Assembly (NCBI GenBank): GCA_903826575.1
Contig: CAIKEU010000039.1
Location: forward strand, 1-64,000
Direction: 5' to 3'
Length of the DNA: 64,000 nucleotides
Origin: an uncultured bacterium
GTDB taxonomy: Bacteria > Actinomycetota > Actinomycetes > S36-B12 > CAIYMF01
The translations under genes and the position numbers were made by a program. The notes under the pieces were generated by a model, which saw nothing but the letters and a program-made list of their open reading frames with translations, searched no databases and was not told where the DNA came from. Below, one piece after another: positions 1 through 49,424 of the stretch (positions are counted from its first letter, which is position 1; every line of letters starts with the position of its first letter).

Positions 1-15
1 CGCCACGACACACAC

Positions 16-435
16 ATGTCGATCCACGGTGACGAAAGCATTCAGCTCATCCGCGTTCTTTACGTGGACGACGACGAAATGATGCGCGACATTGTTGGTG
101 AGCATCTATGTCCCGTCATGAATCTGCTCAGCGTTTCGAGCGTCGCAGAGGCCATTGAGGCACTCGCCACTTTTGATCCGCAGGTTGTTCTAACCGACCT
201 GGACTTGGGGCCCGGCCCAGACGGCACCGACCTGATCGAATTCCTCGCGACCGAACACCGGCATATCGCCAGGGTCATCCTGTCTGCACATGATTCACAA
301 TCATTGTCGGAAATTCGCGGATCGGTCATTCCAGCGAACACGATGTACCTAGGCAAACTGAAGATTCCGTCGATGATTTATGTTGAGCTCGCAATTCGTT
401 CGTGCCTCAAGGAACAGTCCGTAGGGCGTTCATAG
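16..435 (+). CDS. Single-domain response regulator (receiver protein)
   Basis: This is a stand-alone receiver domain of about 139 residues with no output domain. The acidic pocket is visible as VDDDE (residues 18-21), the likely phosphoacceptor is Asp61 in LTDLDLG, the switch Ser is at about 90 in VILSAHD, and the conserved Lys lies in LGKLK (114-116). It ends 10 bases before a membrane histidine kinase on the same strand, so the two probably form a two-component pair. With no DNA-binding domain, it would act by protein contact or phosphotransfer. The ATG at 16 is only 15 bases from the window edge. There is no in-frame stop before it and no clear ribosome site, so the true start could lie further upstream. 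Confidence 0.8.
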   Translation: MSIHGDESIQLIRVLYVDDDEMMRDIVGEHLCPVMNLLSVSSVAEAIEALATFDPQVVLTDLDLGPGPDGTDLIEFLATEHRHIARVILSAHDSQSLSEIRGSVIPANTMYLGKLKIPSMIYVELAIRSCLKEQSVGRS

Positions 436-445
436 TGGCGGCCAC

Positions 446-2356
446 ATGATCGGCTTCATAGACCGACACTTCCCAGAATGGAACGAGTGGCGCTCCGCCC
501 GGGCGAAGTGGATCGTTTCGTGGAAGATCTGGGCTTTCTGGCTTCCTGGGGTGTGGCTCGGAACGGTTGCTATTGAATCGGCGAGCCACGAAGAACCCAT
601 CCCTCTGGTTTCCGGCCCCACCGCCTCACTCGTGGGCCAACTGGTCGGTGGTGCGCTGCTTTGGCTAGCGTCCGTCACCTGGCTCAGGGGCAGATTTGTC
701 CGGCCTGTTTCCCTGACCATCGTGCTTGCCACGTGGTTTGCCTCGGGTGTGGCAACCTACGTCACTACAGACCTGCTACTGCGCGTGATGAATTCCTCGC
801 CTGAGATCGATGCGCCAACAATATTGCTAGCTTATGGTGCCAGCGTGATGCTGCGTTGGTTTACCTCTGTAGCTGTGCTGGCTGGATTCGAAGTTCTGCG
901 CAGCAAGAGGTTGGAGGAGCGTCAGTCGCTTGAGACTGAGCGTGACCTGTTAGCCGGTCTTCACAGCTATGCAGAAGCGATAGACGTTGAACAGCGTTCA
1001 TTCATCACAACAATCCTCCAGCCACGCATCAACACGCTGCGCACGGAAATTGACTCACTTCTTGGGGCCGGATTCAGCCAGCCAGAGTCATTCGATCACG
1101 TCCGGGAGATCGCCACAGATGCCTCAAACAAAGCCAGATCGCTGAGCCACGCGATCGCTTCGATGGATTGGGCACCAATCAAGCCGAACACTCCTGAGGT
1201 GACCCCACGAAGCGCCACGGAGTGGGCAGCCGAATTCTTCGGATACCTGCCGCGAGTTCTTCCCGTCACACTGTGGCTTGTCTTCGTCCAGTTGACGTGG
1301 GCATGGACGAGCACCGACCTGCCAAGCACCATCGTTCTGATTTTCATTCAGACTGTCGTGATCGTCGGGTTTCTTGCATTCGGACACGTAGTGAAACGCC
1401 TGATGACGTCTGCCCCCTGGGCCCTACATCAAGCCTTTACGCACGCTCTTTTCGCCGTCACTTGGATCGTTTTGTGGAGGCTCACCTTCGCCATCGCCGT
1501 GCTGTTCGATGTGCCTAATCCAAAAATCTTTGTGCTCACAACGATCACCCGCACCGCATGTCTTCTCATTGGAACATCGCTCTTGTGCTTCATCATCGTG
1601 ATGAACAAGACAGTCACCGCGGCCTTAGCCACAAGCAAACAACGCATTCGTGCGTTGCGGTTCGAAAGTGAACAGATGGTAGCCGCAGCCCGTGAACGCT
1701 ATGCGACATTGCTCCATGGCCCAATCCAAGGGCGATTGGCACTGGCCTCGTTCCTGCTGACAGAACTCAGTCCGACAAATCTTCCCCACCGCCCAATTTC
1801 AGAAGCGCAGAAGGTTCGGCTAACCCAAATCCTCGACAGTGTGCACAGTGAACTGACGTCGCCGGCTTTCAAAAACTCAGACCATCAGACATTCTCAGAA
1901 TTCTTGGGCAAAACTCAGTCGCTCTGGCTCGGCCTTGTTGAGCTCGACTGGTCGATCAACGATGAGGCTCTCACCAGGATCGCGGCAAATCCGCGAGTGA
2001 CTCGAAACCTGATTCAGTTGTGTGACGAGGCCATCAACAACGCTAAGAAGCATGGACGAGCGCGCCGCATTCGAATCATCATCGATTTCCCTGATCACTC
2101 AACGAATGCTGTCGTGCGAGTGCTTAACGACGGCCTGCCACCTGTGCCGAAGGTTGGCTCAGGACTCGGAAACCACATGTACTCTTCCCTGACTCTTGAC
2201 TGGACGCTTCGAGCCATCGAGCCGGACGATTCGGGCTTCACGACTGAGTTGAAGCTGACCGTAATCGCTGCCCCGCTGTCAGGCCAGACAGGCCTTTCGC
2301 GCCCATCACCTCGAGATTCCCGCGCATCCGCCGATCTCGTTTCGGCCGGGGCGTAA
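446..2356 (+). CDS. Membrane sensor histidine kinase, NarL-type-like
   Basis: The protein has 636 residues. The N-terminal half has hydrophobic spans at about 27-45, 60-80, 87-108, 125-150, 270-290, 295-315, 330-355 and 362-388. The likely phosphoacceptor helix is ERYATLLHGPIQGRL with His424. This resembles the HisKA_3 pattern HDxxxQ, but Asp is replaced by Gly. A C-terminal HATPase domain shows the N box DEAINNAKKHG (about 527-537), the Asp-Gly of the G1 box at about 562 and GSGLGNH (571-577). It follows the receiver gene by 10 bases, which suggests cotranscription. The signal sensed is unknown. The last 25 residues are polar and look disordered. Confidence 0.8.
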   Translation: MIGFIDRHFPEWNEWRSARAKWIVSWKIWAFWLPGVWLGTVAIESASHEEPIPLVSGPTASLVGQLVGGALLWLASVTWLRGRFVRPVSLTIVLATWFASGVATYVTTDLLLRVMNSSPEIDAPTILLAYGASVMLRWFTSVAVLAGFEVLRSKRLEERQSLETERDLLAGLHSYAEAIDVEQRSFITTILQPRINTLRTEIDSLLGAGFSQPESFDHVREIATDASNKARSLSHAIASMDWAPIKPNTPEVTPRSATEWAAEFFGYLPRVLPVTLWLVFVQLTWAWTSTDLPSTIVLIFIQTVVIVGFLAFGHVVKRLMTSAPWALHQAFTHALFAVTWIVLWRLTFAIAVLFDVPNPKIFVLTTITRTACLLIGTSLLCFIIVMNKTVTAALATSKQRIRALRFESEQMVAAARERYATLLHGPIQGRLALASFLLTELSPTNLPHRPISEAQKVRLTQILDSVHSELTSPAFKNSDHQTFSEFLGKTQSLWLGLVELDWSINDEALTRIAANPRVTRNLIQLCDEAINNAKKHGRARRIRIIIDFPDHSTNAVVRVLNDGLPPVPKVGSGLGNHMYSSLTLDWTLRAIEPDDSGFTTELKLTVIAAPLSGQTGLSRPSPRDSRASADLVSAGA

Positions 2357-3374: not shown

Positions 3375-3421
3375 TCTTGCTCCTGCGCCTGGATTCGAAC
3401 CAGGAACCGCCCGATTAACAG
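3375..3421 (-). repeat. attL-like direct repeat (tRNA-Asn 3' fragment)
   Basis: This 47-bp copy is identical to 9638-9684. It contains the 3' acceptor strand, T arm, variable region and 3' anticodon stem with part of the loop. It lacks the D arm and the 5' half, so it is not a functional tRNA. It is the left boundary of the integrated element. Confidence 0.9.
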
Positions 3422-3506
3422 ACAGACCATCAACGTATTCATACGTCCATTGAGCACGCATGCGTGTGCAATATCGTCACATTTGTCCAGTCGGTTGCAC
3501 CCTGTA

Positions 3507-3566
3507 CGTGACACGTTTCGTGACACGTTTCGTGACACGTTTCGTGACACGTTTCGTGACACGTTT
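3507..3566. repeat. Five perfect tandem copies of a 12-bp unit
   Basis: The unit CGTGACACGTTT is repeated five times with no mismatch, starting at 3507, 3519, 3531, 3543 and 3555. It begins 85 bp inside the left att copy. Its core GTGACACG recurs twice at 9566-9587, just inside the right att copy. The position and the shared core suggest arm-type binding sites for the integrase or an excision factor. The repeat could also be an iteron array. Confidence 0.75.
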
Positions 3567-3864
3567 CGGCATCACGAATGTCCGACTGAAACAAGGTTGC
3601 AATTGGTTCCCATACCCCGCACGGCCGAAGTCGCTCCCACGACACTCGCGGCCTGCGGACGTGGATTCCTTTGATGGCCGAACGGGTCTCGACCATTGTC
3701 ACGATACATTCCTGCGCTAACCAAGAAGTCCATGTTGGGAGTTGGTTCGACTAACGCTCAACGGCCACATGAACACAGAATTGAATTCATGAACGTGGCG
3801 CTTTCGATGGCTTACGCTGTCGCTAAATCACGCACTACAGCATCAAAACGAGGTGAAGAACGAC
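3567..3864. other. Non-coding stretch inside the element
   Basis: No plausible gene or RNA is seen between the 12-bp repeats and the small membrane protein gene. The only clear signal is a purine-rich ribosome site (GAGGTGAAG) at 3850-3858. Confidence 0.35.
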
Positions 3865-4203
3865 ATGTCGCTTCAGCCAGCGTTCATATGGGGGCTACTC
3901 ATCGGCGGCCTAGTCGGAGTCGTGCTTGAACGCGTGGTCGGTCGACCCGTAGATCGGTTCTTCGTCGATCCCCTGACACGGGCTTGGGCAAGCGACCAGG
4001 ACCGTTCAGGTGCGTGGAAAGCAGCTCAACGCGGATTGAAGAAACGTTCAGCTGCTGCCGCGGACCAGTATCGAAGCGCAGCCTTAGCGGAGCTGACGAT
4101 GGTCCAAAACGCAGCATGGGGACGAGCGATGAATGGTGATGTGAAGGCTGGCACTCTGGTTGTTCGCACGGTCGAACAGAAATGTCGACTACTCGGGGCG
4201 TGA
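3865..4203 (+). CDS. Small membrane-anchored protein of unknown function
   Basis: The product has about 112 residues and is not recognised as a known family. It begins with a hydrophobic helix (FIWGLLIGGLVGVVLERVV, about residues 6-24). A charged Arg/Ala-rich helical region follows, ending in a conserved-looking VKAGTLVVRTVEQKCRLLG. The ATG at 3865 is preferred over the GTG at 3853 because GAGGTGAAG lies just ahead of it. It is the first gene inside the left end of the element and converges on the minus-strand gene at 4485. The single N-terminal helix suggests an inner-membrane anchor with a cytoplasmic tail. Confidence 0.55.
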   Translation: MSLQPAFIWGLLIGGLVGVVLERVVGRPVDRFFVDPLTRAWASDQDRSGAWKAAQRGLKKRSAAAADQYRSAALAELTMVQNAAWGRAMNGDVKAGTLVVRTVEQKCRLLGA

Positions 4204-4428
4204 GCTGTTATCGCAGGCTCGTCTGGCGAGTATTCGCCTTGGTGTGCTCATCAACCGAGACCATCGGAACCTTCTGCGCCTGCCACCCAGACGCGTGCAT
4301 CAACACGAGCTTCCCGTTATGCAACAAGTAGACAGCTGACGTAGACACACGCTTAATGAACATACGTTCAGGCTACGCCCGCCAGCGATGAATGGTTAGC
4401 GTGAAAGCGAACAGGTTCCCAGACATGA

Positions 4429-4467
4429 CTCTGGCCCACCCATCCATGAAGGACAGGCAGGCCAGAG
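4429..4467. terminator. Possible bidirectional stem-loop between convergent genes
   Basis: CTCTGGCC (4429-4436) pairs perfectly with GGCCAGAG (4460-4467) across a 23-nt loop. It lies between the convergent genes ending at 4203 and 4485. There is no T-run, so terminator function is weakly supported. Confidence 0.25.
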
Positions 4468-4484
4468 CGGAATTTCTTGTCTCG

Positions 4485-5066
4485 CTAACTGTTGCAGGTT
4501 CCGTCAAGTTTTAAATCATGGCTTGGTCCTGGGCTACAGAATGCGAACAGATAGGGCAGAATCGTCGTCATCGAGCGTCCGTTCTGCTGGTATGACACCG
4601 TCAGACCACCATTTGAGTACTCGTCGGATTGCCCCGCTGCGTGCAGTTGGATGGCGAACTCAGGGCTGACGTCTTTAGAGATGGGCGCGTCTGGCAGCCA
4701 AGCCGTCTTGCAGTCCATCTTTATCTCAACCGGTTTGGGAAGGTATCCCATCGTTTCGAGTGGTTGGTCAGACAAAATGAAGAACGGAATACCGGTCTTA
4801 AAAGTGTCCTTCCAACCCCATGCCGTTAGCGTTAGGTTCGGCGTGGGTTCGTTTAGCTCGATTCCGGTGATGACAATTTTTGTCGTCGCGGGTGACTGGT
4901 TACAGAGCGGAATGTCCCCAAAACTTGTATCTCGTCTCGGGAAAAGAACGTGTTGGAATAGGGGATTGGGACCGAAGCCTAACTGTGGTTGCGGCCGCTG
5001 AAACCAGGCGACCGCAACCACAGCAACAAGAGACATTACGATGACGGCTGCGCCCAATCGCTTCAT
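4485..5066 (-). CDS. Membrane-anchored extracytoplasmic protein, unknown function
   Basis: The protein has 193 residues. An N-terminal uncleaved-type signal/transmembrane helix (about 4-22, LGAAVIVMSLVAVVAVAWF) is followed by a soluble domain. The rest is rich in beta-prone segments such as TKIVITGIEL and LTLTAWGWKD and has four Cys that could form disulfides outside the cell. Its ATG overlaps the stop of the upstream collagen-like gene by 4 bases (ATGA), so the two are translationally coupled. No family is recognised. It resembles accessory surface proteins only in general layout. Confidence 0.6.
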   Translation of the reverse strand: MKRLGAAVIVMSLVAVVAVAWFQRPQPQLGFGPNPLFQHVLFPRRDTSFGDIPLCNQSPATTKIVITGIELNEPTPNLTLTAWGWKDTFKTGIPFFILSDQPLETMGYLPKPVEIKMDCKTAWLPDAPISKDVSPEFAIQLHAAGQSDEYSNGGLTVSYQQNGRSMTTILPYLFAFCSPGPSHDLKLDGTCNS

Positions 5067-5437
5067 CAGGCAGGGTGGACTTCAAACTGTGTCGAGCTGC
5101 TAAGCCCCTTTGAACTGTTGAAGCACATAACGCCTGGTCCTTGTGGGCCGACAGATCCATCCGCTCCTGCCGGACCGGTCGAACCCGTCGCACCTTGTGC
5201 ACCAGTCGATCCAGTGTCACCTTTGAACAATGTTCCGGCAGCAAAGTCCGCAGCAGTCAACGAACCGTTCTTCACCTGCGCACCCGTCAGCGTGTTGTTC
5301 GCTATGTCCGCAGCCGTAATCGACTTGTCTTTGATCTGCGCACCAGTGATCAGAGAGGCGGCTGTCGCGGAGATTGTTGACGATAAGACGATCGCACCAA
5401 CGATCGTGAACACTGCTGTCCCACGTGAAATCTGCAT
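5066..5437 (-). CDS. Secreted collagen-like repeat protein
   Basis: The protein has 123 residues. A Sec signal peptide (MQISRGTAVFTIVGAIVLSS, cleavage probably after ATA/A near 26-28) is followed by two degenerate repeats of the type ITGAQIKDKSITAADI, common in actinobacterial collagen-like surface proteins. Next comes a run of about ten Gly-X-Y triplets (GDTGSTGAQGATGSTGPAG onward) and a short tail with one Cys. The collagen stretch is short and the C-terminus brief, so the protein may be truncated. It is coupled to the gene at 4485. The first six residues, MQISRG, are identical to those of the broken gene just upstream. Confidence 0.7.
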   Translation of the reverse strand: MQISRGTAVFTIVGAIVLSSTISATAASLITGAQIKDKSITAADIANNTLTGAQVKNGSLTAADFAAGTLFKGDTGSTGAQGATGSTGPAGADGSVGPQGPGVMCFNSSKGLSSSTQFEVHPA

Positions 5438-5446
5438 GAGTGATCC

Positions 5447-5743
5447 TTAATGCTTCTCGCAGGCGATGCCGTCTTTGTCACGGTCAAGCCCCTTGTTTGC
5501 CGTGTACGCTGCCGCGTTCACTTTGAAGTTGGTCACAGGGTCAGCAACGAGCTGCTTCTTCATGTTGCGGTCCTTCGCAGACTTCGACTTCGCGACCCCA
5601 TGCGGGAACACTTTGTTCAACGCTTTGCAATTCCCCTACTTCTTCGCCGCGGTTGGTGTCACCGCGTGCGCGGGAACAATCGAACCTGCCATGAGGATCG
5701 TGCCAACGATCGCTGCGATAACTGGTCCACGTGAAATCTGCAT
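5447..5743 (-). pseudogene. Secreted excalibur-domain protein interrupted by an amber codon
   Basis: Read through, this 98-codon frame encodes a signal peptide (MQISRGPVIAAIVGTILMAG, then PAHA) and a C-terminal excalibur calcium-binding domain. The domain is recognised from GNCKALNKVFPHGVAK and the DxDxDG-type end GLDRDKDGIACEKH. Codon 36 is TAG (5636-5638 on the minus strand) where the family has Tyr (KKYGNC). One base change would restore it, so this is a recent point-mutation pseudogene, a sequencing error, or a suppressed codon. It lies directly upstream of the collagen-like gene and shares its leader. Confidence 0.7.
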
Positions 5744-5879
5744 AATCCTGTCCCCACCCACGACGAATTGATCATGTGCAGACTATGCGCGACGTGTTAA
5801 AAGGGTCAACAGTCAGACAAGATCATTACACTTGTCCGCGTGGCAAAACTCATCGTCACCCTCGACGACCTAGGACCTC

Positions 5880-6077
5880 GTGCAGGTTCGGAGTTACCAG
5901 GCGATCGGAGCATGCGGCAAAATCACGTGCACTATGGGCTGGGTGACGGTGGCAAGCGCCACGATTCCTGCCGGAAAGACAAGCGTGAACACGAACGCGG
6001 TGTTTGTGTCGGGGACGTCGACTGCGGTCATTGTCTGCATCAAGGCGAACAACCGGCCCGACGTGGCCTGCTCGTAG
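5880..6077 (+). CDS. Short Cys-containing fragment, possibly a secreted protein remnant
   Basis: The 65-codon frame starts with GTG and reads AIGACGKITCTMGWVTVASA, then beta-prone segments ending in VIVCIKANNRPDVACS. The pattern looks protein-like but has no signal peptide or ribosome site. The frame is closed by a stop at 5871, just before the start. It may be the 3' end of a decayed secreted-protein gene. No family is recognised. Confidence 0.25.
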   Translation: MQVRSYQAIGACGKITCTMGWVTVASATIPAGKTSVNTNAVFVSGTSTAVIVCIKANNRPDVACS

Positions 6078-6095
6078 CCGGCTGAATAGCGAAAA

Positions 6096-6134
6096 GCCCG
6101 CCCCTGCCCGCTCTAGAGTTGTGCAGGGGCGGGC
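6096..6134. terminator. Strong GC-rich hairpin
   Basis: GCCCGCCCCTGC (6096-6107) and GCAGGGGCGGGC (6123-6134) form a perfect 12-bp stem with a 15-nt loop. It sits 18 bases past the stop at 6077. A TTTT tract follows only when read on the minus strand. It is probably a terminator serving the fragment upstream or a leftover of a lost gene. Confidence 0.5.
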
Positions 6135-6153
6135 AGTTCATCTGGCGCGGTGG

Positions 6154-6820
6154 ATGCCTGCGGGGTGGGTAGGTGCTCGCATTTCGAGCGTCACATCCGC
6201 TCAGTCTTCGAGCGTCGTCGACAATTTGTCTGCCGCGAGAAGGATCTTCAACGCGGACAGACCGTCAGCGCGGTACTCCGGTACGCAGTTGGTGCTATTC
6301 GGATTTTCACAAGGTGCTGATGTTGTTGCGTGTGCGTGGCAAAGTGACGGCGTAGCCAAACGTTCGCCCGTGGCCGCCGCGTACCGCACGAAAGTCCTCC
6401 GGACGCTCCTCTTTGCAGACCCGATGAAGAGTGATGGTGATAAGAACACTGGCTAGTTCTGAGTTCTGATGCTGGGGGCGCGGTAGTTGCGTGGGCACGG
6501 GAGTCTTCCCATTTGCTTCGTGGTCACGACAACTGGATTCGCCGTCCGGACTCGGACCAAGGCCTGTTCTCCACGCAAACAAGGCATATGACAATGTCAT
6601 CAGGAGTTTGTGCGGAGCGGAAGACATTGTTTGTAATGGCGGAGTCCTGAACACTCCTGTTCCACAAGGGGGAGGCAACTTCAGTCATGTGCACCCAGAT
6701 TTCGAGTACGACAATTACGAACAGTGCGAGGCGTCGCACACAGCGACTAAGTTGGTCGCTCGGAAACCTATCGCAGGGCCAGTCCTTGTTGGCTGCAACG
6801 TCTCAAAACTACAAGCGTGA
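6154..6820 (+). pseudogene. Cutinase/serine esterase-like gene, frameshifted
   Basis: Two reading frames together resemble a cutinase-family alpha/beta hydrolase. The first (to 6456) has SSVVDNLSAARRIFNADRP and the nucleophile elbow LVLFGFSQGADVVACAW, then VLRTLLFADPM. The second (from about 6470 to 6820) carries the C-terminal half, SLCGAEDIVCN, with the expected Cys pair and Asp, and a later His (FSHVHPDFEYDNY). The frames join around 6440-6470, where both have stop codons. There is no obvious signal peptide at the 5' end, so that end is probably missing too. It is likely a dead gene for a secreted esterase. Confidence 0.55.
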
Positions 6821-6864
6821 CGCCCGGTAGGCATTAGTAGTGCGAGGCGCGATCCTAGAACCTT

Positions 6865-6911
6865 GGAGACCGCAGAATTGTTGATAGTGCGGTTGCTATT
6901 CTGCGGTCTCC
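6865..6911. terminator. Bidirectional terminator with 14-bp stem
   Basis: GGAGACCGCAGAAT (6865-6878) and ATTCTGCGGTCTCC (6898-6911) form a perfect 14-bp stem with a 19-nt loop, followed by CTTTC on the plus strand. The right arm includes the last codons and the stop of the GT87 gene, so termination is built into the coding end. Confidence 0.7.
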
Positions 6912-8128
6912 TTTCGGATTTGACCTACAGCGAGACATACCAAAATCCCCAGTGTTAACCAGACGTAGCAGTTTGAGGCGAAGACTCTCGCAAACCAATC
7001 AGAGTCGATCGTGTGATCTGCCATCCGAAATTGCCAGATCAGGTTCGTAGCCATAATCAAGTCCAAGATTGACACCAAGAGCAACGCGACCGGATCTCTC
7101 TTGGCGTTGATCGTTAACGCCACACTTATGACAAGCACCCAAACCCAATGGTGTGTCCAAGAGACGGGTGAAATCAGGAGCGAGGTAGTAGCGAGTGCCG
7201 CCACGGCCCGGATGCGCTCATTCGGATCGGCAATGTCATGCTCTTTCAACGCTCTAAATAGCAGGGCCAAGACGGCGACGGCCGATAGCAACCACAAGGC
7301 CGTAGCCCCTGATCCGTCGCCAACGATCCGAACCCACGCCCCTTTGAGTGATTGGTTCCCGATGTATCCGGCCCAACCTATACGGTCGGTAGCAAAGAGA
7401 GTTCGTGTCCAGTACTCGATGCTGGCCGCAGGAAGTACGACCCCTGCAAGTCCAGTCACCACGGCTACTGTCGCGAGGGTTGTCCACACTGATCGCCAAT
7501 TGCGCTGCCAGATCAAGTACGCAACAAACACCGCGGGTGTCAGCTTGATCGCAATTGCAATCCCGAGAAGCACGCCCTTCGAGCGCCCTTGCACAATCAA
7601 GAGATCAACGCAGACAATCACCATGAGCATTACGTTCACTTGGCCGTAATCAAAGGTTGATTGGAAAGGATCCAGCCTTGTCGCCACCCCTGAGGAACCT
7701 AAGACCAAACAGACGATTCCGAAGCGTCCAAAGAACGCGAGCTGATTGCCGCTTAGACCTCGCGACCACGCTACCCATGTCGTAATCGCTGTAGCCAGAA
7801 ACGAACCGACGAGCAGGCTGAACGCGGCCACCTTAAAGCTCATCAGCGAAAACGGAAGCAAAACTAAGATGGCAAACGGTGGGTACGTAAATGGAAGTTT
7901 CCACTCGGTCACGTAGACGCCATATGGGTTTAGCCCTTGCGCCCTCCAAAGTTCAATGGCATCCCTATAGACGCGGAGATCGAGAAGCGCTGTCGGACTG
8001 AAGTTACGAATCACCCCCCATACGGTGATAAGCCAGCACGCTCCGCCAACGACGGCCAGAACCAAGAGCCCGAGCTTTTGATTGCGAGACAGCGACTTGT
8101 TGTCTTTCTCGTTAACTGCGGAAGACAC
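6896..8128 (-). CDS. GT87/DUF2029 polyprenyl-phosphate-mannose-type glycosyltransferase
   Basis: This is a polytopic membrane protein with about ten hydrophobic spans and the signatures of the GT87 (DUF2029) family: DLRVYRDA with the catalytic-type Asp in the first loop, NPYGVYV, FTYPPFAILVLLPF, FDYGQVNVMLM, GIAIAIKLTPAVFVAYL and GNQSLKG. Family members in actinobacteria transfer mannose or arabinose from a lipid-phosphate donor to cell-envelope glycans on the outer side of the membrane. The frame is open to 8326 (TTG), but those first codons do not look like this family and cover a recombinase-like HTH in another frame. The GTG at 8128 or 8170 is therefore more likely. It is the only intact enzyme gene among the cargo. 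Confidence 0.7.
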   Translation of the reverse strand: MSSAVNEKDNKSLSRNQKLGLLVLAVVGGACWLITVWGVIRNFSPTALLDLRVYRDAIELWRAQGLNPYGVYVTEWKLPFTYPPFAILVLLPFSLMSFKVAAFSLLVGSFLATAITTWVAWSRGLSGNQLAFFGRFGIVCLVLGSSGVATRLDPFQSTFDYGQVNVMLMVIVCVDLLIVQGRSKGVLLGIAIAIKLTPAVFVAYLIWQRNWRSVWTTLATVAVVTGLAGVVLPAASIEYWTRTLFATDRIGWAGYIGNQSLKGAWVRIVGDGSGATALWLLSAVAVLALLFRALKEHDIADPNERIRAVAALATTSLLISPVSWTHHWVWVLVISVALTINAKRDPVALLLVSILDLIMATNLIWQFRMADHTIDSDWFARVFASNCYVWLTLGILVCLAVGQIRKETAE

Positions 8129-8525
8129 AAGAAATGATAACCCGGCCCAGACGGCTAATGAGCGAATCACTTCGCCGTGAGGTTTGTCCTTGATTTTGAT
8201 CGCGGGCGGGAAGTTGTTCTGATCGAGTGGGTATTGGCGGATGACGTTCAGCTGAGTCGCAAAGGAGTCACGCACTTTTAACCTCCCGGTAAACGCTCGC
8301 TCGACTGACGCCGAGGATTCGCGCAACAGTTGGACACGTCGTGTTCACGTGCCTCGTACATCGATAGTGCGAGTAAACGTTTCTCTTCCGTCCACGCTCC
8401 AGCGGGCCGAACATTGTGTGAGGAGTTACCCCTGTTGCAGAGGGAACCACGGACGGTTGTTTATAGCGCGCAATTCCGGTGGTCTGCGTGGTAATTTCAC
8501 GCGCATCACACACAACGGGGGAGTA
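8129..8525. other. Divergent intergenic stretch
   Basis: This region separates the GT87 gene (minus) from the helical-repeat gene (plus) and must hold both promoters; I cannot assign hexamers with confidence. It also contains a possible recombinase HTH remnant (8268-8336). A good ribosome site, GGGGGAG, lies at its right end (8517-8523). Confidence 0.35.
8268..8336 (-). pseudogene. Possible C-terminal HTH remnant of a serine recombinase
   Basis: The minus-strand frame ends with CPTVARILGVSRASVYREVK. This matches the DNA-binding helix-turn-helix that closes Hin/resolvase recombinases (pattern SVAxIARxLGVSRxTVYRxL). No catalytic domain is found upstream in any frame. At 22 residues the match could be chance. 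It is recorded because it lies inside a mobile element. Confidence 0.3.
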
Positions 8526-8966
8526 ATGGTCGAACAAAACAATGAAGGTCCATGGGATGCCGAATGTTGGACTCTAGTGGAAAAGATTCGTGTCAGTGAC
8601 GATATTGATTTCGTGCTGTCCCATGTTGAGCACCCGGACTCTCCGGTGCGTCTCAAGGTGGCCGGCTGGTTCGATTTGGGTGATGCACACTGGCGATCGC
8701 ACAACCTCGACCCCAGTATGTCTCCGTTGCCTAGTCACGCGCCGATGCCCGACGATGTCGCTGCCATTTTGATTCGTGACACTGATTCAAGAGTGGCCAC
8801 TAGTGCAGCATTGCGGGTCAACGATCTAGCACTCTTGATAGACGTAGCGCTCGACGCGAGTGCCAATTCTGACCTTTCTGAGTGCGCGATGAAGCGGATC
8901 GTCACCTTGGATGGCCTTGATGCGTTTCTAGCCACCTCTGGTGATCTGCGTTCGACGCGCGGGTAA
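8526..8966 (+). CDS. HEAT/LRV-like helical repeat protein, unknown function
   Basis: The protein has 146 residues with ATG at 8526, supported by GGGGGAG two bases upstream. The N-terminus is acidic. The second half reads VAAILIRDTDSRVATSAALRVNDLALLIDVALD, like the DxDxxVRxxAxxR units of HEAT or leucine-rich-variant repeats that form a right-handed solenoid for protein contacts. Its 3' end overlaps the integrase frame by 26 bases in another phase. Enzymatic motifs are absent. It could be an element-specific partner of the integrase, or a host-interaction protein. The family assignment is tentative. Confidence 0.5.
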   Translation: MVEQNNEGPWDAECWTLVEKIRVSDDIDFVLSHVEHPDSPVRLKVAGWFDLGDAHWRSHNLDPSMSPLPSHAPMPDDVAAILIRDTDSRVATSAALRVNDLALLIDVALDASANSDLSECAMKRIVTLDGLDAFLATSGDLRSTRG

Positions 8967-9570
8967 ACCGTCGCCTCCACCAAGTACTTACACAACCGCA
9001 GAGTTGGCAACGATTCGAAATCATGTGTATCGCTCGGACCACGCACTCGCCCACGCGTTCATGCTGAGTTTGCATGGGCTGCGAAGGTCAGAAGTCCTCG
9101 GTCTTCGATTCGAGGACTTCTCACAAGAAGGATGGGTCACCATCGCTCGTTCTCGTCCCCCATCATCAAGAAAGCAGATAACGACGGAAGATACGAAGTC
9201 CAAAGCGTCCCGCAGAACGATCAAGATCGACGAAGAGACCCTCTCTGCCATCATGCGTGACAGCGCTCGACGAGGGACACAGGAGGGTTTTGTGGCGGTG
9301 GACGAAGCGGGAGGACCCATCTCGTCGGATCGCTACACAGACCTTTGGAGATCACTAGTGGCTGAAACGGGCTTACCGGTGCACAACTTCCTTGTCTTGA
9401 GGCGATCGGTGGAGACTGCGATGAGGGACAGCGGCGTGCCCATTCACATCAGCGCAGCAGTTATGGGCCACAGCGAACTGATGTCGATGAAGCACTACAC
9501 AGCCGCACACCAGGAGCGAATCGACACGGCCCACGAGTCCATGAACGCATTGTTGGACCGAAGCGTGTGA
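8941..9570 (+). CDS. Tyrosine recombinase/integrase, short (catalytic domain only)
   Basis: The 209 codons cover only the catalytic domain of a phage-type integrase. The first Arg is in LSLHGLRRSEVLGL, the beta-hairpin Lys is in TKSKASRRTIKI, the second Arg is in VLRRSVETAMRDSGVP, the His is in AVMGHSELMSMKHY, and the nucleophile Tyr is in MKHYTAAH. The usual His of box II (HxLR) is Leu here (LVLR). The N-terminal core-binding and arm-binding domains are missing: the frame is closed by a TAG at 8929 just before the GTG start. It ends 67 bases from the right att copy, as expected for an element integrase. It is either a truncated remnant or a minimal recombinase. Confidence 0.75.
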   Translation: MICVRRAGKPSPPPSTYTTAELATIRNHVYRSDHALAHAFMLSLHGLRRSEVLGLRFEDFSQEGWVTIARSRPPSSRKQITTEDTKSKASRRTIKIDEETLSAIMRDSARRGTQEGFVAVDEAGGPISSDRYTDLWRSLVAETGLPVHNFLVLRRSVETAMRDSGVPIHISAAVMGHSELMSMKHYTAAHQERIDTAHESMNALLDRSV

Positions 9571-9587
9571 CACGAATGTGACACGAA
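9566..9587. repeat. Two 11-bp tandem repeats near the right att site
   Basis: TGTGACACGAA occurs twice in tandem (9566-9576 and 9577-9587) across the integrase stop codon. It shares the core GTGACACG with the five-copy array at the other end of the element. A role as arm-type sites for recombination is inferred. Confidence 0.6.
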
Positions 9588-9637
9588 ATTTGCTGTACAT
9601 CGCTGGGTTCTGCGTTTCCGCAGGTCAGACCGGTCTT

Positions 9638-9684
9638 TCTTGCTCCTGCGCCTGGATTCGAACCAGGAACCGCCCGATTAACAG
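9638..9684 (-). repeat. attR-like direct repeat within tRNA-Asn
   Basis: This copy is identical over 47 bp to 3375-3421. It forms the 3' portion of the intact tRNA-Asn gene and marks the right boundary of the integrated element. Confidence 0.9.
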
Positions 9685-9714
9685 TCGGGAGCTCTGCCGT
9701 TGAGCTACGCAGGA
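9643..9714 (-). tRNA. tRNA-Asn (GTT anticodon)
   Basis: Read on the minus strand, the 72-nt gene folds as a complete cloverleaf. The acceptor stem is TCCTGCG/CGCAGGA with discriminator G, the D stem is GCTC/GAGC, the anticodon stem is CCCGA/TCGGG around loop CTGTTAA (anticodon GTT), and the T arm is CCTGG-TTCGAAT-CCAGG. CCA is not encoded in full. It is the integration target of the neighbouring element and lies downstream of the dnaG operon. Confidence 0.95.
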
Positions 9715-26463: not shown

Positions 26464-27422
26464 CAGCCAACGAGGCTTGCCGCGATGACCGCGACGACGA
26501 AGGTGGTCGGCGCAAAGCGTGCGGCAAAATGACGACCAAACGTACCCGCTTGCAGCGCAACGAGTTTGATATCGACCATCGGTCCAACTACTAAAAATGC
26601 CAGTCGAGCAGTGAGCGAAAATTGCGTCAGTGACGCGGCAACGAAAGCGTCGGCCTCACTGCAAATGCACAGAACGACGGCAAGTACAGACAGTCCGAGG
26701 ATCGACAAGAGCGGCTTGTCCGACACAGCCTGCAACCACGACGGTGGTACTACGACATTCAAGATTGCCGCGGTGATCCCGCCAATGACCAGGAACCCGC
26801 CAGCGTGTAGAAAGTCGTGAGAGGCTGTCCGCCAGAAGGTTCCGAACTTCGTATCGGCATGAAGGTGGTCTCGCTGCGGAATGTGGAGCCACTCACCTTT
26901 TCCGAAGGCTAACCACACCCAGCCCATCACCACCGCAGCAATCAGCGAGGCGACCAGTCGAGCCGCAGCCATCATGTGATTGTTAGGAAACGCCACGAAG
27001 GTCGACACGATCACAACAGGGTTGATCGCCGGACTCGACAGTAGGAACGCTAGGGCCGCAGCAGGAGAAACTCCCTGCGCCATCAATCCGCCGGCGACCG
27101 GAACTGACGCACACTCACAGCCAGGGATGAGTACGCCGGCGGCCCCAGCAACAGGAACGGCAAGGGCCGGATTCTTAGGTAGCACTCGCTCGAAGAACGC
27201 CGGCGATACATATGCCGCGATGAGACCCGAGAGCACGACCCCCAGAACCAGAAAAGGTAGAGCCTGCACAACGATCGCAACAAAGACGGTAGCCCCCGCT
27301 TCCCATGCAGGTGCTTGGAACAAACCAACTAGCCAATGTTGAGCGAGGATGAAGATCGCAAGCCCCGCAATGAAAAACTCAATTGCCGTGGGCTTCCAAC
27401 GTCTAGTGACAACCTCGGTCAT
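26451..27422 (-). CDS. PF03773 (DUF318) permease
   Basis: This 323-residue polytopic protein has the family signature [42 protein letters not shown] and the second-half repeat [12 protein letters not shown]. Members form a two-gene unit with TIGR03943 proteins and are linked to metal homeostasis or export; the substrate is not proven. The ATG overlaps the uppS stop by 4 bases, so it can be read through from the cell-wall operon. No separate Zur box was found at its start. Confidence 0.85.
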
Positions 27423-31452: not shown

Positions 31453-32381
31453 AAGATTGATTGTGTACTACTCGAGGCGTGTGGGTTGCGGCGCGTGGAA
31501 ACGAAGCCCTGCAAAGCCAGCCCAATGAGCACTAGTGCGGCACCCGCCCACTCGATTGGCAGCAAGTGCTCGCCCAAGATGACGACGCTTAGAACCGTCG
31601 CAATGACGGGCTCTGCGAGAACAAGGGTTGTGACTGGTCCGGCCGATAAATGCCGAAGCCCGCGACCGAACAGGACGTACGCGACCGTCGTAGCCGCGAA
31701 GCCGAGCCACAGAACCATCGCAAGACCCTTCGGGGTGCCGATCCACCCGAGTGGCTGGCTGAGCAAAATCGGCACCGAAATCAGCGCACCCAAGCCAAAC
31801 GCCGATGCCATCACTTCATCGCTGCTGTGCCCTGAATTGATCATGTGTTTCGCACCAATCGTGTACAGCGCATAGCCAGCACTCGCCATGAAACTCAGCA
31901 CGAATCCAAGAACGCTGATGTGCGACACCTCGATCCCAGCACCGATCAAGAACACCAAACCCATGAGACAGATCGCAGTAGCCACCACCCATCCCAGAGT
32001 GGGCCGATCCTTGAGCACTAACCACGAGAGCAAGCCGCCGAGAATCGGCCCCGTACCGATCGTGACTAATGTTCCAAGGGCAACCCCGGTCTGAAGTAAC
32101 GCACCGAAGAAACACACTTGGTACATCGTCGTCATCAAACCAGCCGCGACTCCCCACGGTGTCTTCCACAGACTGATCGCGCCACGGCGGGTCGCGCCAA
32201 GCAAGGGCAGCACGGCCATCAGACCACATCCACCGATGACAATTCGGGCTGCACCGACACCAAGTGGGGTCGTACCCGTCGGGCCTAGCGCTTGAGCGAT
32301 TCCTGTCGTTCCAAACAAACACGCCGCACCCAGAACCGCGAAAACAGCCAGAACCCGGCCGCGATGATCCTGATCACTCAC
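31449..32381 (-). CDS. EamA/DMT-family transporter
   Basis: About 310 residues form ten hydrophobic spans in two EamA repeats: LAVFAVLGAACLFGTTGIAQ at the first, and GFVLSFMASAGYALYTIGAK and later LVLAEPVIATVLSVVILGEH in the second half. Drug/metabolite exporters of this family carry amino acids, metabolites or drugs; the substrate is unknown. The GTG at 32381 gives MSDQDHRGRVLAVFAV and lies within a 14-bp tandem repeat that offers several GTGAGT starts in different phases. It is inserted between the cytidine-deaminase-like gene and era, an uncommon neighbour there. Confidence 0.8.
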   Translation of the reverse strand: MSDQDHRGRVLAVFAVLGAACLFGTTGIAQALGPTGTTPLGVGAARIVIGGCGLMAVLPLLGATRRGAISLWKTPWGVAAGLMTTMYQVCFFGALLQTGVALGTLVTIGTGPILGGLLSWLVLKDRPTLGWVVATAICLMGLVFLIGAGIEVSHISVLGFVLSFMASAGYALYTIGAKHMINSGHSSDEVMASAFGLGALISVPILLSQPLGWIGTPKGLAMVLWLGFAATTVAYVLFGRGLRHLSAGPVTTLVLAEPVIATVLSVVILGEHLLPIEWAGAALVLIGLALQGFVSTRRNPHASSSTQSIL

Positions 32382-32444
32382 GAGACTGCACTCACGAGAC
32401 TGCACTCACGACACAGCACTCACGAGACAGCACTGACGAGCATG
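32375..32444. repeat. 14-bp tandem repeat across a stop and a start codon
   Basis: Five units lie end to end from 32375: CACTCACGAGACTG twice, CACTCACGACACAG, CACTCACGAGACAG and a diverged CACTGACGAGCATG. Read on the minus strand, each unit carries GTGAGTG. The array contains the TGA of the cytidine-deaminase-like gene and the likely GTG of the EamA gene. Since 14 is not a multiple of 3, each copy shifts the phase. Confidence 0.85.
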
Positions 32445-46976: not shown

Positions 46977-49424
46977 CTACCCCCACGACCCTCGTCGAAT
47001 GAGTTGCAGTTCGCCTGTATTCGCCTTGACCACGGCCAGATCACCGTCGAGATCCGTACGTCCAACGATGGCACCTACCGCTTGATATGCATGCACGGTG
47101 CCCGGCCACGGATGGCCATAATCGTTGTTAAGACCAACACCAATCAACGCAATTTTGGGTCGGGTGATTCGAGCCCAGTTCGGTGATTGCTTGGCCGAGC
47201 CATGATGTGGGACTTTGACAACGTCGACAGCCGTGACCCGTCCACTTGCGAGCACAGCATCCTGCGCCGCAGTCTCCAAATCACCGCCTAGAAGTGCCCT
47301 CATTGAGTTGACCTTGGCCAGGATCGTCACGCTGGCATTGTTCGGATCAGAGCCAACACCGCGAAGAATTCGTTGCGGCCATAGGACATCCATAACAACC
47401 GGCCCGACCTGGAAGACATCTCCTGGGGCGGCATGACGTTCCGAAATACCCGCCGATTCGGCCCAGCGATAAACGCGGCCTGCCTCGGTGGCCGGCTCGG
47501 ATAGTGGTGAAACTTCGAGAATGGCTGGGCGAGTAATCGAAAGCAGTCCCGGTAAACCTTCAACATGATCCGCGTGAAAATGGGTTAGGACAACCATCGG
47601 GATTGCGGTAATTCTTGACCTCTGGATGCAGCCTCGCTCGGCAGCCGGATCAGGGCCCGTATCAACAGCAATCGCGGTCGCATCGTCAATCCTGATGAGC
47701 GCCGAATCCCCCTGTCCGACATCGCACATGATCATCTGCCAGCCCGCAGGTGGCCACGCGGATGCCGTTGTCAATGGCTGTGAGACAGGGGTTGGCACAC
47801 CAAGTGACAGCGCGATGCCAACGGCGATCACGGTTATACACAACCGTCGAATCTTTCCGGCGGGCGCAATGATCAGAGCGGCGATTCCGGACGCAACCAG
47901 CAATGCCATCAATCCAGCACCTTCGAGTCCACTCGTCCATGGAATCGGCGGGAAGTTCGCCGCTGTCCATCGAGCGATCGCCGATATGGTCGCGGTTGCC
48001 CAACAGGCCGGCAGTACGACAATCGCAGCCAGGCTCGGATTTACCACACCCACAGCACCGGCAATCAGCCCGAACGCCGTAGCCGGGAAGACGCACGGCT
48101 CTGCACAAATATTCGCAAGGATTCCGCCGAGCTGAAGTCCATTACCGAACCACACCGATACCGGTGCAACGATGACGGTCGCGGCAAAGGCAGCTACGCC
48201 CAAGGACGTAATTGTGCGGCCGAACCTGACAAGAGGCGATGACGGCGGTGGGCGATCGGCTCCCCTGCGAGCAACGACAATCAGCGCGGAAGTGGCCAGC
48301 ACAGACATCGCGAAGCCAGGTGAGATTGCCAAGAACGGATCCACCAGTACCAGCGTGCACACGGTAGCGGCCAGAACCGCTTGCGCCCGAAGCTTGAGTC
48401 CAAGGCTCGTGGCCGCAAGTCCAGCAATCGCCATAAGAGCCGCACGATCCACCGATGGCGCAGGCTGCACCACGATGACGTAGGCGACCACGCCACCCGC
48501 GACGGCCAGGAGTTGACGTCGGCCTCGTCGCAATCCCGATGTGCGCAGCAATCCGAGCCAGACGACGATGACAATGCTGATGTTTCCACCCGAGACCGCC
48601 GACAGGTGAGACAGTCCACTATCTCTCATCGCCATCGACAACTCATCGGACATCGCAGTGGTCTGTCCGACGACAAGGCCAGGCAGAAGTCCGCGCACAT
48701 CGTCAGGCTGCCCATGCACACTGGCAGCGACTGAGTTGCGAAAGACGTCGGCGACAACCTGCCACCAAGGCGCTTGGCTGGTGATCACCGTCGTTTCAGC
48801 GCGAACGTAACCCGCAACCCCTCGCAATGGCTCACCGGGCCGGACGGTGCCGACGATATGCACGAACGCTCCAGGGATGAGGCCGGCGACAGGTCGTCGA
48901 AGGTCTAGTTCCACCGGCAGATCCGCCACGATTACCTGACCACCGATGTGTTTCCAGTGACGAAGCGTTGCTCGGCATCGCCACGAATCGTCCATGCGTC
49001 GTGACCCGCTAGTGAGTCCAGATCGACGTTCCGGTGACGTATTGATCATGAGGTCGGCTTCGACGCGCAGATGGTGTTGTGCTCCGAGTGACTGGGCTTC
49101 GGTAGGCAGTGGATCGGCTTGAAGTGGCATCACCCGCCACGTGACGACCACCGCACACAGGACGATCACACACGCACCCGCGACACCTGCTCTTATCAAT
49201 TCAGGTGCAGAACCACGTGACTGTATTGATGAGTGACCCCAGAGCCGCCCAACCGCCGGCAGGAACCAGACCGCCATCAGCATGGCCGACGCCGCAGCTA
49301 CGGCCACGCCCCACATCGTGGGCCACCCGTGGCCAGTAATCAGGAGCAGATCCAACGCGGTGGCAACCCACACGCACAGGGCCGCACCGATCGGTACCCA
49401 CGAAGTTCGCGGCGGCTGCGTCAT
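46977..49424 (-). CDS. comEC: ComEC/Rec2 DNA internalisation protein
   Basis: The 815-residue membrane protein would form the channel for single-stranded DNA entry in natural transformation. It has an N-terminal DUF4131 region, the ComEC core with GLSHLSAVSGGNISIVIVVWLGLLR, and a C-terminal metallo-beta-lactamase domain with LTHFHADHVEGLPGLL and VPHHGSAKQS. All expected parts are intact. The start overlaps comEA by 4 bases. Many actinobacteria keep comEA/comEC without known competence. Confidence 0.93.
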   Translation of the reverse strand: MTQPPRTSWVPIGAALCVWVATALDLLLITGHGWPTMWGVAVAAASAMLMAVWFLPAVGRLWGHSSIQSRGSAPELIRAGVAGACVIVLCAVVVTWRVMPLQADPLPTEAQSLGAQHHLRVEADLMINTSPERRSGLTSGSRRMDDSWRCRATLRHWKHIGGQVIVADLPVELDLRRPVAGLIPGAFVHIVGTVRPGEPLRGVAGYVRAETTVITSQAPWWQVVADVFRNSVAASVHGQPDDVRGLLPGLVVGQTTAMSDELSMAMRDSGLSHLSAVSGGNISIVIVVWLGLLRTSGLRRGRRQLLAVAGGVVAYVIVVQPAPSVDRAALMAIAGLAATSLGLKLRAQAVLAATVCTLVLVDPFLAISPGFAMSVLATSALIVVARRGADRPPPSSPLVRFGRTITSLGVAAFAATVIVAPVSVWFGNGLQLGGILANICAEPCVFPATAFGLIAGAVGVVNPSLAAIVVLPACWATATISAIARWTAANFPPIPWTSGLEGAGLMALLVASGIAALIIAPAGKIRRLCITVIAVGIALSLGVPTPVSQPLTTASAWPPAGWQMIMCDVGQGDSALIRIDDATAIAVDTGPDPAAERGCIQRSRITAIPMVVLTHFHADHVEGLPGLLSITRPAILEVSPLSEPATEAGRVYRWAESAGISERHAAPGDVFQVGPVVMDVLWPQRILRGVGSDPNNASVTILAKVNSMRALLGGDLETAAQDAVLASGRVTAVDVVKVPHHGSAKQSPNWARITRPKIALIGVGLNNDYGHPWPGTVHAYQAVGAIVGRTDLDGDLAVVKANTGELQLIRRGSWG

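Follow-up and report, generated by a model that had tools for sequence, protein, structure and literature searches.

The window analysed here, i.e., the whole stretch of 64,000 nucleotides, is the start of contig C39 in a 3.01-Mb draft genome of 106 contigs (G000). Within it, a 6.3-kb segment (3375-9684) lies between two copies of a 47-bp repeat, the second of which overlaps a tRNA gene. The features of this segment are as follows (coordinates, strand, feature):

3375-3421, +: displaced 3′ fragment of the tRNA-Asn gene at the distal insertion end, identical to 9638-9684 over its 47 bp
3507-3568, +: 12-bp tandem array, CGTGACACGTTT ×5.2, probable distal arm-type integrase sites (from the sequence and by analogy with an element of genome G003, see below)
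3874-4203, +: small ORF, 109 aa, matching PHROG 645 (“RNase E”), E=1.3e-10
4485-5066, −: orphan ORF, 193 aa, open
5066-5437, −: short secreted collagen-like protein, 123 aa, open; below the Pfam cut-off
5450-5743, −: gene with an Excalibur domain, interrupted after codon 35 by an in-frame TAG; probable pseudogene
6004-6820, +: cutinase-like region split over two frames (6004-6456 and 6470-6820), probable pseudogene
6229-6285, −: scrap of 19 codons that match (79-83%) the C-terminal end of a gene located elsewhere in this genome (contig C98)
6896-8326, −: GT87/mannosyltransferase-like membrane protein, apparently intact
8526-8966, +: ORF of 146 aa overlapping the integrase start; no Pfam hit
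8941-9570, +: tyrosine integrase reduced to its C-terminal catalytic part, with LxxR instead of HxxR in box II (PHROG, Pfam, alignment)
9567-9585, +: two copies of GTGACACG, 11 bp apart, probable proximal arm-type sites
9638-9684, +: proximal copy of the 47-bp repeat, i.e., the tRNA 3′ half plus 4 flanking bases
9642-9714, −: tRNA-Asn (GTT), the target gene, also found by Rfam

The repeat is perfect and its two copies have the same orientation, as the original prediction had it. The right copy starts in the anticodon loop of tRNA-Asn(GTT), the sole tRNA gene of the window, lies almost entirely inside this gene and extends 4 bases past its 3′ end; three of these four bases (CTT) are shared with the congener G004, whose contig starts there. 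Forty-seven identical bases ending in a tRNA anticodon loop cannot be a product of chance. Insertion at the ends of tRNA genes is common among mobile islands, and an intact tRNA at one boundary, a displaced fragment in the same orientation at the other and a tyrosine integrase (here its catalytic domain only) inside, beside the tRNA, make up the layout by which tRNA-targeted genomic islands are usually recognised. The anatomy of the repeat and the tRNA thus supports a delimited insertion made by a tyrosine integrase at tRNA-Asn, which had also been proposed. Base composition gives no sharp boundary, with a GC content of 53-60% inside the element and in its left flank and of 58-64% to the right.

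Integrase and short motifs inside both ends

The integrase announced next to the intact tRNA is indeed there, pointing at the tRNA and ending 68 bp before the right repeat, but only as a C-terminal piece. It is 209 aa long, and its full-length relatives (392-635 aa) align with it solely via their C-terminal 170-210 residues; the Pfam match covers the catalytic domain alone (PF00589, E=2.2e-13), and the alignment to PHROG 1 begins only at position 259 of 611. Pfam finds neither a core-binding nor an arm-binding N-terminal domain in 8941-9570, and a search for the N-terminal part in all frames upstream of 8941 and elsewhere in the element returned nothing above noise. Box II reads FLVLRRS, i.e., its histidine has become a leucine, with the other Arg, GH and Tyr retained; the aligned relatives have HDLR, HDAR, HDCR or HGLR at this place. 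The N-terminal domains and the complete R-HxxR-H-Y set of a functional tyrosine integrase are, therefore, both missing. One has to keep in mind that the loss of the histidine need not mean the death of the integrase: it is weaker evidence than the missing domains, as the nearest relative (G019, 37% identity) is also without it (box II RAAR). Judging by its sequence, the integrase is a remnant, truncated at its 5′ end and deprived of its arm- and core-binding domains.

It could be argued that a short, catalytic-only recombinase is the working form, the G019 relative being another stripped-down integrase, and that it acts with a separate arm-binding protein (e.g., the product of the overlapping ORF 8526-8966) on an expanded array of arm sites; we consider this very improbable. 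The shortness of the G019 integrase was rejected as proof of a natural short family, as its gene runs off the end of a contig. The relatives sit beside tRNA genes, three of them beside tRNA-Phe, and the one from G003 has SAM-like domains and a weak match to an arm-binding domain.

Repeat arrays had been reported just inside both ends, and they are found there. The left one, 86 bp inside the displaced repeat copy, consists of 5.2 perfect 12-bp units with GTGACACG as core; at the right end, copies of this core start at 9567 and 9578, 53-71 bp inside the right repeat, the first one overlapping the integrase stop codon. The number of GTGACACG copies in the whole window is not exceptional (9 found, 4.9 expected); what is unusual is their placement, with 7/9 located within about 140 bp of the two 47-bp repeats. 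The three relatives adjoining tRNA-Phe likewise have a motif pair at the integrase stop codon or immediately behind it, namely TGACACATCTGTGACACG in G009, TGACAAATACGTGACAAG in G019 and TGAGAGATTGTGAGAG in G003. The motif thus differs from one integrase to another across these three and the window, which fits arm-type sites bound by the integrase N-terminal domain. By analogy, the 12-bp array and the right-end copies would most simply be arm-type binding sites of the integrase; pairs and triplets of direct repeats around the core have been described in mycobacteriophage attP sites (PMC3203893).

Two other short sequences were recorded. The motif TGACCTGC, or its complement, lies between integrase and tRNA in several elements (about 9614-9626 in the window; loci L005, L007, L010, L067 and L073) and is possibly another protein-binding site of the recombination region. 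Outside the element, a 14-bp tandem repeat, CACTCACGAGACAG, is present in 4.7 copies with a 92% match (32375-32440).

Cargo genes

GT87 is the only cargo gene that looks clearly intact, and its original assignment is solid (PF09594, E=5.7e-44); it is closest to mannosyltransferase models, and its best relatives in the order do not exceed 38% identity. If expressed, a protein of this family would transfer a sugar onto a lipid or glycan of the envelope. The other assignments fared less well. The Gly-X-Y stretch of the collagen-like protein is plain, but the Pfam match is short and below the cut-off; this ORF is also the sole one to match tail-fibre families in PHROGs, via the same repeat. The Excalibur domain is real, but its gene, which begins with a signal peptide, meets an in-frame TAG after codon 35 (near 5636) before continuing in the same frame to the domain. 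The cutinase-like region carries the nucleophile motif GFSQG in one frame and an apparent C-terminal part in the other; its Pfam match is below the cut-off, and the ORF matches PHROG 102 (endolysin) with E=3.5e-9. From their reading frames, the Excalibur and cutinase genes are probable pseudogenes; we use no stronger word because the assembly may contain base errors, and the stop and the frameshift could be consensus errors of the 106 contigs. The scrap at 6229-6285 corresponds to the terminal part of the C98 gene, which encodes 250 aa, and is, thus, a piece of a third gene.

The label “helical-repeat protein” given to ORF 8526-8966 is unsupported, as this ORF has no Pfam hit and its predicted structure is of low confidence (pLDDT 44); the structure models of the two orphan ORFs are uninformative (pLDDT 36 and 44). 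The orphan 4485-5066 has one paralogue (47%), on contig C17 of the same genome, whereas none turned up among 161 further genomes of this order. At their signal-peptide starts (MQISRG..., 5387-5437 and 5693-5743), the collagen-like and Excalibur genes are almost identical, as if one had been copied from the other.

The absence of replication and transfer genes noted originally holds for the main ORFs, among which the Pfam and NCBIfam scans revealed no relaxase or FtsK-type transfer gene, and the PHROGs scan no structural, packaging or replication gene. A defence-gene scan of the window’s ORFs was negative as well.

The tRNA-Asn site in related genomes

Contig C39 starts only 3.4 kb before the left repeat, and this left flank is strain-variable. 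In the congeners examined, dnaG adjoins tRNA-Asn; a YihY/BrkB gene lies on the other side of the tRNA, at a distance of 64-109 bp in G007, G009 and G010 and further away in others. In G000, the YihY/BrkB gene is on contig C88, the end of which overlaps window positions 446-516 perfectly (71 bp), and the order is likely YihY, deacetylase, thioesterase, response regulator, histidine kinase, methyltransferase, displaced repeat, element, tRNA and dnaG. Contig C59 of the closest relative, G004, has YihY, deacetylase, thioesterase and methyltransferase in the same order. The DNA to the left of the displaced repeat is, thus, chromosomal, since it is syntenic with G004 while the interval between methyltransferase and tRNA differs: in G004, this interval holds other genes, two of which have homologues on other G000 contigs, and a contig break exactly at the repeat, where contig C58 starts. 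An empty site was sought with both flanks in all congeners, and none was found; in no congener did the left flank match beside the tRNA, in G004 the contig is interrupted at the repeat, and in the others the DNA next to the tRNA is different.

In G002, a separate insertion occupies the same tRNA-Asn: on contig C9 (4151-4794), a displaced fragment of 26 bp precedes the beginning of a different integrase, and on contig C8 (136-275), GTGGCACG occurs twice beside the tRNA. As this insertion is independent, the site has been used repeatedly.

Other observations concern the neighbourhood. Contig C88 (3906-4421) ends in a near-copy of the start of the response-regulator/histidine-kinase region (window 1-516), identical over 446-516, which is either an assembly fork or strain variation. 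G006 has two tRNA-Asn(GTT) genes 2.2 kb apart (6718-6791 and 9008-9084, locus L064) with a dnaG-like fragment before the second, which suggests a local duplication. Finally, G003 and G008 have integrases beside tRNA-Met (loci L071, about 4396-5741, and L069; 58% mutual identity), representing a second site of integration within a few kb of the YihY gene.

It had been proposed to look for the same integrase and the same 12-bp array elsewhere, and no second copy turned up. DNA searches with the interior (3422-9637) gave no substantial match among congeners, nor any in phages or plasmids; no protein exceeds 37% identity over the length of the integrase in 166 genomes of the order and 395 of the class; the doubled array unit is found nowhere else in the order. 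Integrase, interior and array are, hence, all without a second copy in congeners, order, class sample, phages and plasmids, and for the integrase and the array (doubled unit included) this extends to viral contigs. A search of genome contigs for the integrase returned only a 24% Oceanobacillus integrase.

Origin of the element and related systems

We consider it likely that an integrative element has decayed to the remnant seen at 3375-9684, an island stranded at tRNA-Asn, with the arrays as the arm-type sites of its integrase. From the anatomy, a tyrosine integrase would have recombined the 3′ half of tRNA-Asn(GTT) with the corresponding core sequence of the incoming element; the latter would have brought a replacement 3′ half, leaving the tRNA whole and pushing the original half to the far end, and the two 47-bp copies are what is observed today. 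The GTGACACG copies inside each end would be the P and P′ arms bound by the integrase N-terminal domain, for which a related element offers a parallel. Later on, the integrase would have been deprived of its N-terminal half and of the histidine of box II, and both the Excalibur and the cutinase gene would have broken, as they appear in the assembled sequence. With a truncated integrase and broken genes, the element has probably lost the ability to excise on its own, and the original view of a complete satellite-type island that alters the cell surface is not supported. Against this remnant reading speak the failure to find an empty site, the strain-variable left flank with the contig start only 3.4 kb away, the consensus errors that could lie behind the stop and the frameshift of the cargo genes, and the nearest integrase relative, which also lacks the box-II histidine and runs off its contig.

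The related element is a complete-looking 20.1-kb insertion at tRNA-Phe in G003 (contig C35, 27238-47390), bounded by 44-bp perfect repeats (27238-27281 and 47347-47390), with TGTGAGAAATCGTGAGAGG 106 bp inside the distal repeat copy and TGTGAGAGATTGTGAGAGG at the proximal end. Its cargo comprises a TraA-like relaxase-helicase, two-component systems and an ABC-transporter-type permease, with no phage genes noticed among its ORFs. It resembles the window element by its related integrase (37%) and by the order tRNA, motif pair, integrase, cargo, motif copies and displaced fragment, and differs from it by its full-length integrase (392 aa), its relaxase-helicase, its target tRNA and its GTGAGAG-type motif.

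Could the remnant be that of a prophage, reduced to an integrase and a few genes? This narrower version of the preferred reading is possible, if rather doubtful. The integrase has PHROG 1 as best match, the cutinase-like ORF and ORF 3874-4203 match PHROGs 102 and 645, and mycobacteriophage and Rhodococcus phage integrases are among the relatives of the integrase; however, genes for a capsid, a portal, a terminase or replication are missing, the G003 element, which has a related full-length integrase, encodes a relaxase-helicase, and the only relative found for the orphan gene is a chromosomal paralogue. The remnant may derive from either a prophage or a mobilizable element. The original prediction of a complete satellite island whose cargo changes the cell surface, here a small one mobilized in trans by a helper, appears improbable. 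The ends are perfect, transfer and replication genes are missing, several cargo proteins are secreted or membrane-bound, and the intact array of arm sites could be served in trans by a full-length integrase; yet the element’s own integrase is truncated, the Excalibur and cutinase genes counted among its surface functions are broken, no helper was identified, and the searched genomes contain no second copy. Hardly credible, finally, is a repeat created by partial tRNA duplication or an assembly join without any integration. The assembly is a draft and forks here, with G004 contig C58 starting exactly at the repeat and C88 overlapping C39 by 71 bp; against this, the repeat extends 4 bp beyond the tRNA and stops in the anticodon loop, an integrase and matched motifs lie inside the ends, and G002 used the same tRNA independently.

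The tRNA-Asn(GTT) between the YihY/BrkB gene and dnaG is, thus, a reused integration site in this actinobacterial genus, and the same end architecture, with motif copies inside both ends, occurs in one wrecked and one complete element. The rest is ordinary genome decay, and the individual element is of no special importance.

Among known systems, the core is likewise flanked on either side by short direct repeats, proposed to be arm-type sites, in the attP regions of mycobacteriophages such as CrimD and Pixie, and the Pixie core measures 47 bp and overlaps a tRNA-Lys gene (PMC3203893); unlike them, the window has a distal array of five perfect tandem units, in an element without phage particle genes. 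Integrative and mobilizable elements (IMEs, reviewed in PMC5704250) share the integrase-based, site-specific insertion at a tRNA, whereas no relaxase gene was found in the window element. The closest description is that of the tRNA islands, defined by the Islander authors by a restored target and a displaced fragment marking the two ends (PMC4383910): the window element has the intact tRNA, the displaced 3′ fragment in the same orientation and the tyrosine integrase inside, next to the tRNA, but its 6.3 kb fall below the main published size peak of 13.6 kb, and its truncated integrase means that it is not “putatively active” in the Islander sense. It most likely belongs to this known kind in a degenerate form, as an ordinary remnant that was left stranded and not as a new, active element.
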